NCBI GenBank assembly: GCA_902779315.1
Contig: CACZBC010000005.1
Location: forward strand, 1 to 52,279
Length of the DNA stretch: 52,279 bases
From: an uncultured Bacteroidales bacterium
GTDB taxonomy: Bacteria; Bacteroidota; Bacteroidia; Bacteroidales; Bacteroidaceae
Direction: 5' to 3'
The notes under the pieces are model-generated. The model was not told where the DNA came from and ran no database searches. It worked only from the letters and a program-made list of their open reading frames with translations. Shown one piece after another: positions 34,320 to 38,232 of this stretch. Both the position numbers and the translations under genes were made by a program. The first letter of the stretch is position 1. Every line of letters begins with the position of its first letter.

Positions 34320-34350
34320 ATTGTACATTGTTTAAAATAAACTAACTTTG
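34320..34350 (+). promoter_or_regulatory. Promoter of the sigma-barrel gene
   Basis: ATTG (34320-34323), 19-bp spacer, TAACTTTG (34343-34350). The gene is thus readable by the housekeeping sigma factor, with a leader of about 85 bases to the ATG at 34444. Confidence 0.65.
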
Positions 34351-34443
34351 CATATGTTTTGTGTCTAACAAGAAAAAATCGCTAATACCGTGCAGTCTTT
34401 TTGCAGTTCATCGGACTATATAGAAGGAAGAGTCTCGTTTACG

Positions 34444-36090
34444 ATGGAGATAACATGGCTGATAGAACGGTGCAGACAAGGTGATTCGGAAGCTCTCGGC
34501 GAATTATACAAGATGTACGCTCACAGAATGCGTGGTGTGTGCTCACGTTATATCTCCGATGAGCAAACCATCAGCGATGTGTTGCACGATGCTTTTGTGG
34601 TTATCTTTACCTCTTTCGAGAAACTGCGCGACGATAGCAAAGCGGAAGCATGGATGATGTCAATTACGAGGAATGTTGCCTCGAAGTACAAAGACTATCA
34701 AGATGCACATCGGACTTTCCTGCTTGAAGAATCAACTGAAACAAACCTTCTTGCAGAAAAGGAGGAAGAACAGGACGTGAGAGGAATCCCTTTGGATGAG
34801 GTAATAAGTCTGGTCGATAAGTTGCCAGAGGGATATGGGAAGGTATTCCGTCTCTCTGTCTTCGAAGGGTTGTCGCACAAAGAAATCGCAAACATCTTAG
34901 GCATTGAGCCACACTCATCCTCGTCGCAATTGGCACGCGCAAAGAAGATGCTTCGCAAGATGATGAGGCGATACTGGCTCGTATTCATGTTGCTATTTGT
35001 TCCCCTTGTCTTCATCTTGCAGAAGAAAGAAGAAGTCCCCCCAAAGGGCGAAAAGCCTATCGTAGAGAAGCAAAAGCCTCTTCCCGTTGAATCGCATCAT
35101 GAGAAGACGGGAGGATCTGCAATTGCCTCTGTGCCTAAGCATCAAGTAACGGCAGTTGCTACAGACACCTTGCAAGATGTAATAACTCAGGAACTGGTAA
35201 TGCCAGACACCTTGCAGGACCAGGAACAAAGCGATACGGTTCGTCTCGCCCCCAAAATAGGGACAATACAGCATTATGACATGGCCGACATTATCCGTGA
35301 TAATCCCGTTCGGAAAACCTATCATGAACGAAGGTGGTCGCTTGAACTCGCATACGCAGGCAGTCTTGGCGAACAGTACATAAATCTCCCTTATGCTTTT
35401 ACAGAGACGCCGATGATAAGTCCGACAGGCGAGGCAGCGTCGCCAATAACGTTCAAAAATTGGAGCGACTATGCTGCATATCTTTCAGAACTTCCTGCCG
35501 ATGACAATTCTCATACGCGTAGTGTTATCATGAATGTGGCTTTGAACAATGCCAATCGCCCAGAAACAGACAAGATTATGCGAACGAGTCACCATTATAT
35601 GCCTTTCACATGCTCGTTGGCGTTGAAGTACAGTCTGAACAATCGCATAAGTTTAGAGTCAGGCCTGAACTATAGCCGTCTTGTTTCCAACTTCGAAATG
35701 GGAGCTGACGGTAATGCTATTCGCGAACATCAAACCATTCACTATCTTGGAATCCCAGTAAAGGGAATATATAATATGTATAACAAAAAGGCATGGAGCC
35801 TTTATGCAAGTGCTGGCATAACAGCGGAAATCCCAGTCTTCTCATCGCTGAGCAAGAGTTATTACTTGCACGATGTGATGTCAGGCACTGATAGAGAAAG
35901 CATTCATGCTTCTTGGCAGTGGTCAATTGGTACAGGAATCGGCGTTGAATATAAACTGACACCAAGCATCGGCCTCTTTGTCGAGCCAAGTATGCGATAC
36001 TATATCCCAACAGACAGCAACATCGAAACTTACTATACTAAGCATCCGTTTACATTCTCCCTGCCTTTAGGCATAAGATTTACATGGTAG
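34444..36090 (+). CDS. ECF sigma factor fused to a transmembrane helix and outer-membrane beta-barrel
   Basis: A 548-residue single chain. Residues about 5-85 are sigma-70 region 2 (ALGELYKMYAHRMRGVCSRY, ISDVLHDAFVVIF), about 118-172 region 4 (LPEGYGKVFRLSVFEGLSHK, EIANILGIEPHSSSSQLARA). Directly after region 4 comes one hydrophobic helix (YWLVFMLLFVPLVFIL, about 177-192), then a linker of roughly 100 residues whose start is rich in Pro, Lys and Glu (KKEEVPPKGEKPIVEKQKP), then a beta-barrel of the OMP_b-brl type (RRWSLELAYAGSLGEQY to the terminal SLPLGIRFTW). The reading frame is open throughout, with no trace of a lost stop. In Bacteroidales an ECF sigma gene is often followed by a separate gene with a transmembrane helix and a barrel; here both are one protein, without an anti-sigma domain. 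The ATG at 34444 begins a normal region 2; an upstream GTG at 34390 is less likely. Confidence 0.88.
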   Translation: MEITWLIERCRQGDSEALGELYKMYAHRMRGVCSRYISDEQTISDVLHDAFVVIFTSFEKLRDDSKAEAWMMSITRNVASKYKDYQDAHRTFLLEESTETNLLAEKEEEQDVRGIPLDEVISLVDKLPEGYGKVFRLSVFEGLSHKEIANILGIEPHSSSSQLARAKKMLRKMMRRYWLVFMLLFVPLVFILQKKEEVPPKGEKPIVEKQKPLPVESHHEKTGGSAIASVPKHQVTAVATDTLQDVITQELVMPDTLQDQEQSDTVRLAPKIGTIQHYDMADIIRDNPVRKTYHERRWSLELAYAGSLGEQYINLPYAFTETPMISPTGEAASPITFKNWSDYAAYLSELPADDNSHTRSVIMNVALNNANRPETDKIMRTSHHYMPFTCSLALKYSLNNRISLESGLNYSRLVSNFEMGADGNAIREHQTIHYLGIPVKGIYNMYNKKAWSLYASAGITAEIPVFSSLSKSYYLHDVMSGTDRESIHASWQWSIGTGIGVEYKLTPSIGLFVEPSMRYYIPTDSNIETYYTKHPFTFSLPLGIRFTW

Positions 36091-36101
36091 TGGTGCAGTC
36101 A

Positions 36102-36148
36102 TTCGTTGCATAATCGGACTTATTAAATAGAGAACAATATGCAACGAA
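36102..36148 (+). promoter_or_regulatory. Inverted repeat before the radical SAM gene
   Basis: TTCGTTGCATA (36102-36112) and TATGCAACGAA (36138-36148) are perfect 11-bp inverted repeats with a 25-base AT-rich loop, ending four bases before the ATG at 36153. No T-run follows. It could be an RNA hairpin hiding the ribosome site, or a dyad operator. Confidence 0.55.
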
Positions 36149-36152
36149 AACT

Positions 36153-37229
36153 ATGTACAACATCTTTGATTATGTATACAACGGATTCCTCTATTTGAAT
36201 AATATGGCAAGGCCGAGGCACAAACTGCTGTCGGGGCTGATGATATACTCAACTACACTTTGCCAGTCGAGATGTAAGCATTGCAACATTTGGCAAAAGC
36301 AACCAGAGCATCTGTTGCTCGAAGATATCAAAAGAGTGATGGAGAGCCGCTGCGTAACCCGTCGGACAACCGTAGGTTTGGAAGGCGGAGAGTTTGTCTT
36401 GCATCCACAGGCCAATGAAATCATGGCGTGGTTCCACGAACATCACCCCAATTATACTTTATTGTCGAATTGCCTCGCACCTCGCCGTGTCGTAGATGCT
36501 GTGCGTCTTTATCATCCTCGACATTTGTATTTGTCTCTCGATGGCAACCGCGAAAGTTACTTGCGGATGCGAGGCAGGGATGGATATGACAAGGTGATTC
36601 AGGTCGTTGATGCCTTAAAGGATGAAGTCCCATTGTCGTTGATGTTCTGCCTTTCGCCTTGGAATTCTTTCGAAGATATGGCCTTTGTCATTGATGTTGC
36701 CAAACATTATGGCGTGGATGTTCGTGTCGGCATATATGGAACAATGGCTTTCTTTGATACCACGAGCGAGTTGTTGAAAGCCTCTGATTTCGTGAAACAT
36801 ATCCCGCAAAGCATTCATGACACACAGGAGAACTATGATTTTGTGGCACTATATGACCAGTGGCGAAACGGACATCTGCGATTACGTTGCCAAAGTATAA
36901 TGAGCAACCTTGTCATTCACAGCAATGGCGATGTGCCGCTCTGTCAGAACCTTGATGTCCTTTTGGGTAACATTCACAAGCAATCGCTAGATGATATTTT
37001 CAATGGGACAATGGCCTGCCAGACTCAACAGCACTATTCGCAACAATGCAACGATTGCTGGATTAACTTCCATCGCAAGTACGACATCATTCTTGTGCGA
37101 AGTCTTGAACGCCTGTTTCCCAAGTGGCTCATTGAGAAGTTCTATGGTTCTTATCAATGGACAGCAGACAAAAAGCAAACATATAAACAACATATGAAAC
37201 ATTGCAATGATACAAAAACTGATTTATAG
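36153..37229 (+). CDS. Radical SAM protein with SPASM-like C-terminus
   Basis: A 358-residue radical SAM enzyme. The 4Fe-4S motif CxxxCxxC is CQSRCKHC (Cys37, 41, 44); GLEGGEFVLHP is the GGE-type SAM segment and YLSLDGNRESYLRMRG follows the usual strand pattern. C-terminal cysteines at 246, 264, 289, 299 and 302 (HSNGDVPLCQNLDVLLGNI, QQCNDCW) fit a SPASM or twitch auxiliary-cluster domain. The substrate is unknown; such enzymes modify peptides, sugars or lipids. It lies 62 bases after the sigma-barrel gene and its end overlaps the next gene by 23 bases, so the three could form one transcript. Base composition is more AT-rich than most of the window. Confidence 0.88.
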   Translation: MYNIFDYVYNGFLYLNNMARPRHKLLSGLMIYSTTLCQSRCKHCNIWQKQPEHLLLEDIKRVMESRCVTRRTTVGLEGGEFVLHPQANEIMAWFHEHHPNYTLLSNCLAPRRVVDAVRLYHPRHLYLSLDGNRESYLRMRGRDGYDKVIQVVDALKDEVPLSLMFCLSPWNSFEDMAFVIDVAKHYGVDVRVGIYGTMAFFDTTSELLKASDFVKHIPQSIHDTQENYDFVALYDQWRNGHLRLRCQSIMSNLVIHSNGDVPLCQNLDVLLGNIHKQSLDDIFNGTMACQTQQHYSQQCNDCWINFHRKYDIILVRSLERLFPKWLIEKFYGSYQWTADKKQTYKQHMKHCNDTKTDL

Positions 37230-38232
37230 CCTCAAGCGTAAGTGTACAGAACATTATCTGCGCCAAACGTACCAATGTCAATATGCCTTCGTTGGCATGG
37301 GACAACACTCGTTGACCAATCTTTACCCGGTTCTTCGTTATTTGGGAGTATCGTTGAAATATATTTGTGTTACGACAACATACAAGGCAAAGTTAATAGA
37401 AAGGAAATATCCCCTTGTTAAGGCTACCGTGTCGCTCGACGAGGTTCTCAACGACGAGGAAGTGAAGGGCGTATTCGTCTCGGCCTTGCCCTCTGCTCAT
37501 TTCTCCATTGCCTCACAAGTCTTGAAGAGTGGGAAGTCGTTGTTCATAGAAAAGCCTCCTTGCCAGACATTAGATGAACTTGATGTCCTCATCAGCCTCC
37601 AGCGGCAATATGGCTCGTCAGTTGCTATGGTAGGAATGCAGAAACGGTATGCTCCGGCAGTTCGATTGTTAAGGAAAAGGCTTGGCAGAGAGCAGCTTCT
37701 AAACTATGATATGCACTACCTTACGGGCGCTTATCCTGAAGGCGATGCCCTGCTTGACCTTTATATCCATCCTGTTGACTTGGTGTGTCACCTCTTTGGT
37801 CAGCCGGGAATCTTGGCATGTAGGAAGGTTGCAAAGGATTCATACATACTCATGCTTCAGCATCCACACGTTGCAGGTACGCTCGAACTCTCTGCTGCCT
37901 ATAGTTGGACGGGCTCGGAAGAAACCTTGAAAATCTGCACACGTTCTGGGATTTATCGTTTAGAGCAAATGGAAGAACTGATGTTTGAGCCCAAACCTTC
38001 CAGTATTTTCGGTCTTCCGACAGATAAGATGATTCGCCATCATGCGTTGGAAGAACACTTGTATCAACGCAATAACGCAGTTCCCATACCAACCAACAAT
38101 CAGATTTATTCGCAAGGTTTCTTTAATGAAATCGAGGCATTTGTGTCCGCCATTGAGCACAGCCATTCCGATGTCCTTACTTCTCTGCCTTCGCTTAGAA
38201 TGACTTATGGGACATTGCTGAACATCAAGTGA
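37207..38232 (+). CDS. Gfo/Idh/MocA family oxidoreductase
   Basis: A 341-residue NAD(P)-dependent oxidoreductase. A short basic N-terminal helix (LIYSLKRKCTEHYLRQ) precedes the Rossmann fold with AFVGMGQHS; the family EKP motif is SLFIEKPPCQT, and DLYIHPVDLVCHLFG provides the conserved catalytic Asp/His region. Family members oxidise or reduce sugars and cyclitols. It overlaps the radical SAM gene, which suggests that the two act on the same substrate. Its stop lies three bases from the stop of the convergent helicase gene. Confidence 0.88.
   Translation: MIQKLIYSLKRKCTEHYLRQTYQCQYAFVGMGQHSLTNLYPVLRYLGVSLKYICVTTTYKAKLIERKYPLVKATVSLDEVLNDEEVKGVFVSALPSAHFSIASQVLKSGKSLFIEKPPCQTLDELDVLISLQRQYGSSVAMVGMQKRYAPAVRLLRKRLGREQLLNYDMHYLTGAYPEGDALLDLYIHPVDLVCHLFGQPGILACRKVAKDSYILMLQHPHVAGTLELSAAYSWTGSEETLKICTRSGIYRLEQMEELMFEPKPSSIFGLPTDKMIRHHALEEHLYQRNNAVPIPTNNQIYSQGFFNEIEAFVSAIEHSHSDVLTSLPSLRMTYGTLLNIK

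Follow-up and report, generated by a model that had tools for sequence, protein, structure and literature searches.

A Dma3-like gene joining an ECF sigma factor to a predicted outer-membrane beta-barrel in Bacteroidales

How might a sigma factor be controlled from the outer membrane if it shares a single polypeptide with a membrane helix and a beta-barrel, and what would keep it silent if no anti-sigma gene lies beside it? The question is raised by a gene in a contig from an uncultured Bacteroidales bacterium (GenBank assembly GCA_902779315.1, contig CACZBC010000005.1), of which the stretch from position 1 to 52,279 was analysed and is referred to as the window. An earlier note, made from the letters of the DNA, had read this gene as an ECF sigma factor, a transmembrane (TM) helix and an outer-membrane barrel on one chain, and this reading is borne out by the 548-residue open frame, its Pfam domains and the open frames of 79 of 80 relatives. 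The following sections describe the gene, its two-gene relatives, a promoter-like element that accompanies it and the mode of control that these features suggest.

The fusion gene and its predicted topology

The fusion gene occupies positions 34444-36090 of the forward strand, on which all further features also lie, and consists of a single open frame without internal stop that is translated into 548 residues (P0001). It is supported by the open frame, Pfam matches, alignment and intact relatives, and is termed Dma3-like for reasons given below. A GTG start at 34390, which would extend the protein to 566 residues, was rejected on the grounds of its overlap with the promoter-like element and of the ATG at 34444, at which the conserved protein begins. 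The N-terminal part contains sigma region 2 (residues 21-82, positions 34504-34689; Sigma70_r2, PF04542, 33.6 bits against a cut-off of 24) and sigma region 4 (residues 118-170, positions 34795-34953; Sigma70_r4_2, PF08281, 47 bits against a cut-off of 25.7). Sigma70_ECF also scores above its cut-off, and the phmmer matches of the sigma part are consistent with an ECF sigma factor. With regions 2 and 4 as its only sigma content, as in ECF sigma factors, the protein is by its sequence a member of this class; it may belong to the ECF21 group, a number that is taken only from its context and from the accessible part of PMC13088901. The stretch H157-L163 (HSSSSQL) in region 4 is invariant across 11 alignment rows.

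Region 4 is directly followed by a lone TM helix (residues 177-193, positions 34972-35022), which is rich in leucine, includes Pro187 and forms the sole hydrophobic segment of the protein (Kyte-Doolittle 2.3). A linker of approximately 100 residues (residues 194-297, positions 35023-35334), predicted to be disordered and to cross the periplasm, connects the helix to the C-terminal outer-membrane beta-barrel (residues 298-548, positions 35335-36087), which ends in FTW and is matched by OMP_b-brl_2 at residues 380-521 above the curated Pfam cut-off (PF13568, 41.6 bits, cut-off 27). The linker has the Pro/Lys/Glu-rich composition that the earlier note ascribed to it, but its description as TonB-like was rejected since no TonB family matched.

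The structure was modelled with AlphaFold2 from an alignment of 60 sequences, comprising the window protein and 59 of the 80 best relative loci. The model (pTM 0.44) contains the helices of the sigma domain, a helix at residues 161-193 in which the recognition helix continues into the TM helix, disorder at 195-295 (pLDDT below 50) and strands at 298-547, in keeping with the barrel that had been proposed for residues 297-548. Ten-residue mean pLDDT values are 77-93 at residues 361-548, 59-85 at 301-360 and 74 at 171-190, and fall to 43-62 at 111-170, which covers region 4; because of these low values and the pTM of the model, region 4 and the placement of the domains are uncertain. Among solved structures, Foldseek ranks porins and barrels of the OmpA type highest (OmpA 9fzc, TM-score 0.60 by target), with ECF sigma factors, for instance E. 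coli sigma-E (1or7), also among the top entries. The TM helix, the disordered linker and the predicted barrel together suggest a chain that would run from the cytoplasm through the inner membrane and the periplasm to the outer membrane, a topology that had been proposed earlier and is supported here as a prediction.

An alternative to a genuine fusion is an artefact or a decaying gene, namely two neighbouring genes joined by the assembly or by an accident of the reading frame. Intactness was gauged by a scan of a species-genome collection that yielded 356 relatives, the best 80 of which were kept; the scan was seeded with the sigma motifs of fused proteins and therefore gauges intactness and not frequency. 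All of the best 80 loci match at least residues 46-548 of the fusion protein, and none is split near 35010, the site that the earlier note had named for a possible stop codon or frameshift. An open frame from the start of the match to the stop codon is found in 79 of the 80, the exception being L057, whose match is interrupted by a stop at its eleventh codon. Within the same set the TM helix begins 19-22 residues past the histidine of HSSSSQ in region 4, the C-terminal end is FTW in 79 proteins and ITW in one, and many of the relatives carry names of Prevotella, Prevotellaceae or Bacteroidaceae from the rumen or other ruminant guts. Compared with L003, an 87% identical relative, dN/dS is 0.056 for residues 1-90, 0.065 for residues 115-175, 0.24 for the TM helix, 0.32 for the linker and 0.19 for the barrel, values that point to purifying selection on both the sigma and the barrel halves, strongest on the sigma half. 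A few broken or cut copies (L057, L122, L199, L200, L201 and L257) would suit an artefact or a fusion in decay. This explanation can practically be dismissed, and an assembly artefact was rejected, in view of the 79 open loci out of 80, the single clade formed by the fused proteins (support 100/99, see below) and the purifying selection on both parts.

In these copies, which carry a stop or a change of frame or are cut, the sigma domain and the TM helix still share a frame except in L057 with its stop near the start; L201 is located at a contig end. A near-identical relative, L002 (genome G005), has 20 of its 24 differences from the window gene within an 85-nucleotide patch at 34980-35064 (gene nucleotides 537-621) that covers the TM helix and the start of the linker. 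In this patch L002 is equal to L003, although L003 is otherwise more distant, a pattern suggestive of local recombination or of mixed strains in the assembly. The frame is open through the patch in the window gene, L002 and L003.

Two-gene relatives and the origin of the fused form

The relatives of the fusion gene occur in three builds, of which the first (a) is fused and the other two consist of two adjacent genes. In build b an ECF sigma gene is paired with a gene for a barrel protein that is composed of a soluble N-terminal segment, a TM helix, a linker and a barrel. Build c combines an ECF sigma factor of another type (PPGTIATRL in region 4) with another soluble segment (LRRALQQ...). Barrel proteins with a different soluble segment, mostly LRRALQQ...LPEGF, were observed in L140-L146, L148-L150, L014 and L018, and where the partner of the LRRALQQ-type proteins is seen it is an ECF sigma factor with PPGT[IVL]ATRL in region 4, so that barrels of a similar kind work with a second lineage of sigma factors. 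A signature of the form P-x3-W-x2-hydrophobic precedes the TM helix in 29 of 50 partners from builds b and c together.

The soluble segment that lies ahead of the TM helix in two-gene partners is absent from the fused proteins. In these the gap between region 4 and the TM helix has a median of 2 residues (range -3 to 8, n=137), which leaves no room for a soluble anti-sigma segment; the signature was found between region 4 and the TM helix in none of the 137 fused proteins, a result that is trivial at that distance. From the end of the TM helix to the C-terminus the median length is 372 residues in the 137 fused proteins versus 355 in the 50 two-gene partners. The TM helices themselves differ in character. 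Proline is present in 118 of 137 fused proteins versus 6 of 50 two-gene partners (109 of 132 versus 6 of 50 after thinning), and per 17 TM residues the thinned fused proteins have 6.3 leucines and 1.2 alanines, versus 3.3 and 5.0 in the two-gene partners. Proline is however no constant of the family, since the fused TM helices without it (19 of 137, or 23 of 132 after thinning) include most members from groups g27, g33 and g37.

The earlier note had held that such a protein could do without a separate anti-sigma factor, and both the missing segment and the flanking genes agree with this view. The neighbours of the fusion gene in the window are a FadL-like porin, a radical SAM protein, a Gfo/Idh protein and a DbpA-type helicase, with neither a separate sigma gene nor an anti-sigma gene beside it. 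The sigma domain might nonetheless be silenced by an anti-sigma factor from elsewhere, or by the segment of a two-gene Dma protein in the same cell, in which case the fusion would only target it to the membrane. In Bacteroides thetaiotaomicron crosstalk is suspected, as the dma3 locus (bt_2778-2779) rises in both dma1 and dma2 mutants according to the accessible text of PMC13088901. Set against the lack of an anti-sigma gene beside the fusion gene in the window and the conservation of the fused clade without the segment, silencing by a separate anti-sigma factor appears quite improbable.

In a tree built from 122 sigma domains, the fused rows, 73 in number and including three broken or cut copies, all lie on one side of one branch with a support of 100/99, and the branch is present in 100% of 200 bootstrap trees. 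An earlier quick tree of 109 rows also placed the fused rows on one branch (SH-aLRT 100), beside the sigma factors of build b. The trees were thinned by dropping near-identical sigma domains and by taking every fifth (109-row tree) or every eighth row (122-row tree) of the large Prevotella group, and both exclude seven sigma ORFs (L122, which has a stop, L225_755, L102, L092, L057_7153, L100 and L142). Because the fused rows form one clade, the fusion likely arose once as far as sampled, and several independent fusions were not seen within the sample.

Within the genus of the window, a match at E 1e-20 or less is present in 57 of 139 genomes, and by row count 35 of 139 have sigma factor and barrel in one frame; among these 35, the copy in G096 has an internal stop and that in G124 matches from residue 43. 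At the family level a match at 1e-30 or less is present in 166 of 301 genomes, with fused rows in many genus groups. Group g27 has matches at 1e-50 or less in 13 of 149 genomes, comprising 10 genes fused in one frame, two broken copies and one two-gene pair (G491). The order sample yielded matches at 1e-50 or less in 9 of 393 genomes, and fused genes extend there to family groups f5, f26 and f111. The phylum sample yielded matches at 1e-45 or less in 5 of 395, two of which lie outside the order and are both barrels of two-gene pairs. No fused gene was seen beyond the window's order in the phylum sample of 395 genomes. The candidates scored per genome were few (three in the order and phylum scans, four in the family scan and at most nine in g27), so that misses are possible. 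Two diverged fused genes each are present in G005, G023, G033, G070, G094, G134 and G150, and also, with pieces at contig ends, in G075, G112 and G154; a cell may therefore operate more than one signalling chain of this kind.

A promoter-like element and candidate target genes

A pattern of the form TGCAGTC-N15-GGACT is located at 34391-34417 before the fusion gene, where it is a putative ECF -35/-10 element suggestive of autoregulation, and a second copy lies at 36094-36120 before the downstream operon. Both were identified by pattern matching, and the two matches in the window compare with 0.01 expected by chance. To count the element in relatives, rows with too short a stretch of upstream DNA or a short sigma match were left out, and the removal of near-copies thinned 182 rows to 129. 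TGCAGTC occurs within 160 nucleotides upstream of 118 of the 129 thinned fused genes and, downstream of the stop codon, within 200 nucleotides in 96 of 128 thinned loci with the fusion, against a same-strand background of 0.018 per 160 nucleotides. Upstream of two-gene sigma genes it was found in 5 of 58 cases, one of which (L012) is a truncated copy of a fused gene.

On the scale of whole genomes the bare pattern of the full element is weak evidence. The window's own genome (incomplete, 2.83 Mb) contains three exact matches, two of them flanking the fusion gene, and one match to the reversed control. In 16 other genomes there are 25 matches versus 23 for the reversed control, and 16 of the 25 sit less than 2 kb from a fused gene. 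The 12 of these genomes that have a fused gene contain 20 matches, the 16 within 2 kb being spread over nine genomes; the exceptions are the two matches of G003 and two of G011, which lie elsewhere, and G102 and G124, which have none. The four genomes without a matched fused gene contain five matches, none of which is of the TGCAGTCTTT form.

The second half of the element reads GGAC in the window's clade, where 62 of 64 have Ala at sigma residue 67, and ATC[T/C/A] elsewhere, where 39 of 40 have Phe, Leu, Ile or Val at this residue; 25 of 129 loci have neither -10 class or are without TGCAGTC. The pattern fits a sigma factor that reads its own promoter, and TGCAGTC-N15-GGACT is named here as the candidate promoter of the fusion sigma factor. 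Since the -10 switch tracks one clade it is possibly a single event. No set of residues is claimed to explain the switch, the mutual information being driven by one clade and spread over the whole sigma domain. L196 and L197, which are without TGCAGTC, are also altered in the recognition helix (QTSGSQL). The exact TGCAGTC is absent from L004, L049, L192, L193 and L233, which keep PHSSSSQL, and several loci without the exact motif differ from it by one letter. Upstream of the promoter-like element, at 34342-34350, TAACTTTGC resembles the Bacteroidetes housekeeping -7 box and could provide a basal promoter.

The second copy of the element precedes two putative target genes that would form an operon. 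The first encodes a radical SAM/SPASM protein (36153-37229; PF04055 and PF13186) and the second, which overlaps it, a Gfo/Idh/MocA-type oxidoreductase (37207-38232; PF01408). Among loci L031-L110, 69 extend for 1500 nucleotides or more downstream; of these, the radical SAM gene is matched in 57 and the Gfo/Idh gene in 49, and 49 have a lipoprotein-like gene. The latter encodes a protein of approximately 185 residues after the fusion gene (for example L005:3273-3839 and L006:3307-3867), two examples of which matched no Pfam family, one of them having a weak NCBIfam match (E 0.0085), and the protein may or may not be related to NigD. In the window the radical SAM gene directly follows the fusion gene with no lipoprotein-like gene between them. 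In other groups a methyltransferase gene often follows the fusion gene (L193-L195, L198, L208 and others; Pfam Methyltransf_23 in L193), and in L193 and L198 TGCAGTC lies between the two genes. A role of the operon product in surface-glycan or lipid modification is a guess.

Probable mode of control and comparison with known systems

The probable explanation of these features is a Dma3-like single-chain trans-envelope sigma factor, which tethers itself, is released on an outer-membrane signal and then drives its own gene and the neighbouring operon. The N-terminal ECF sigma domain would be a cytoplasmic domain that the TM helix, continuing from the recognition helix, keeps at the inner membrane, and the flexible linker would span the periplasm to the OmpA-like barrel in the outer membrane. 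In the resting state the sigma domain would be off because it is pinned to the membrane and not because an anti-sigma factor covers it. If the barrel registered a change, the chain would be cut, most likely by an RseP-type protease within or next to the TM helix, and the freed sigma domain would read the TGCAGTC-N15-GGACT promoters of its own gene and of the adjacent radical SAM/oxidoreductase operon, which in many relatives is preceded by the lipoprotein gene. We thus infer inhibition by tethering and release by proteolysis. The window's genome has one RseP-type peptidase (PF02163), which proves little as the family is general and present in 14 of 14 control genomes. A more specific version is plausible but held tentatively. 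It proposes that at the fusion the membrane replaced a discarded anti-sigma segment, and that an unbroken recognition helix and TM helix gave rise to a single polypeptide that links the outer membrane to a private pair of promoters, kept in a single lineage across the order.

By a ToxR/CadC-like logic, the tethered sigma factor might instead work without cleavage if an outer-membrane event pulled or loosened the linker, shifted the shape of the sigma domain or its distance from the membrane and caused RNA polymerase to be recruited to the membrane. The conserved length of linker and barrel would suit a tether under tension. However, the recognition helix appears to be continuous with the TM helix, an arrangement expected to leave promoter DNA cramped at the membrane, and IutY, the closest studied single-chain analogue, is cut according to the accessible part of PMC8999054; an uncut mechanism is therefore considered unlikely.

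The barrel might be a mere anchor or folding reporter that triggers release on failed barrel assembly or envelope damage, with no ligand. This reading shares the release step with the preferred explanation and differs from it on the signal, and the probabilities assigned to the two overlap. It gains from the two-gene protein Reo, which reaches from the cytoplasm to the cell surface and for which outer-membrane stress has been proposed as the signal (PMC13114119, accessible part). The selection on the barrel (dN/dS 0.19 against L003) and its many invariant residues are more than a plug may need, and a pure anchor or folding reporter is possible but on the doubtful side.

The data presented here assign the single-chain build to a family that probably arose once, suggest a likely way in which its sigma factor is kept off and supply a promoter-like element together with candidate target genes. 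If self-tethering and signal-dependent release are true, a membrane tether can stand in for an anti-sigma factor, and in abundant gut and rumen bacteria events at the cell surface can reach a promoter via one polypeptide. The protein would then represent an outer-membrane one-component system built from a sigma factor.

The design is not new, although the earlier note knew of no described example. The accessible part of PMC13088901, citing Pardue et al. 2024, reports that Dma3 of B. thetaiotaomicron carries a sigma domain at its own N-terminus with no adjacent sigma gene, and this is the only description of a sigma-barrel fusion found in the literature searched, as far as the texts were accessible. 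Compared by description only, the window protein likewise has an N-terminal sigma domain on a dual membrane-spanning chain and no sigma gene next to it, and it shares with the Dma family the TM helix, the long disordered tether and the C-terminal beta-barrel. The same text states that Dma3 is dispensable for the hypervesiculation of dma1 and dma2 mutants and that very little is known about it. The window protein is, judging from its sequence, Dma3-like but no anti-sigma protein in the strict sense, because there is no room for an anti-sigma segment between region 4 and the TM helix.

The Das/Dma and EcfO/Reo systems, which combine an ECF21 sigma factor with a dual membrane-spanning anti-sigma factor, have the same layout of the barrel protein, a similar length and a related sigma factor, and two-gene sigma factors of this kind border the fused clade in the trees; the likeness of the two-gene relatives to these systems is drawn from the published layout rather than from aligned sequences of the Bacteroides proteins. 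PMC9308784 describes a barrel-bearing anti-sigma factor with the two-gene layout, and PMC12596196 mentions Das1/Dma1 and EcfO only in passing, both in their accessible parts. The two-gene systems differ from the window protein in their two genes, in the soluble N-terminal segment before the TM helix and in the Ala-rich TM helix, which is without proline in 44 of 50 partners.

A further single-chain system, IutY of P. putida (ECF243), works together with a separate outer-membrane receptor. It is a natural sigma/anti-sigma fusion that is activated by regulated proteolysis, being freed by Prc and RseP, and together with the ECF48, ECF52 and ECF53 fusions it resembles the window protein in joining a sigma factor and a membrane-spanning regulator on one chain (PMC8999054, accessible part). 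The extensions of these fusions are described as anti-sigma-like, with no mention of an outer-membrane barrel in that part of the source. The single-chain design as such has thus already been described for Dma3, and what the window protein and its relatives add to it is a single lineage, a missing anti-sigma segment and a likely private promoter pair.
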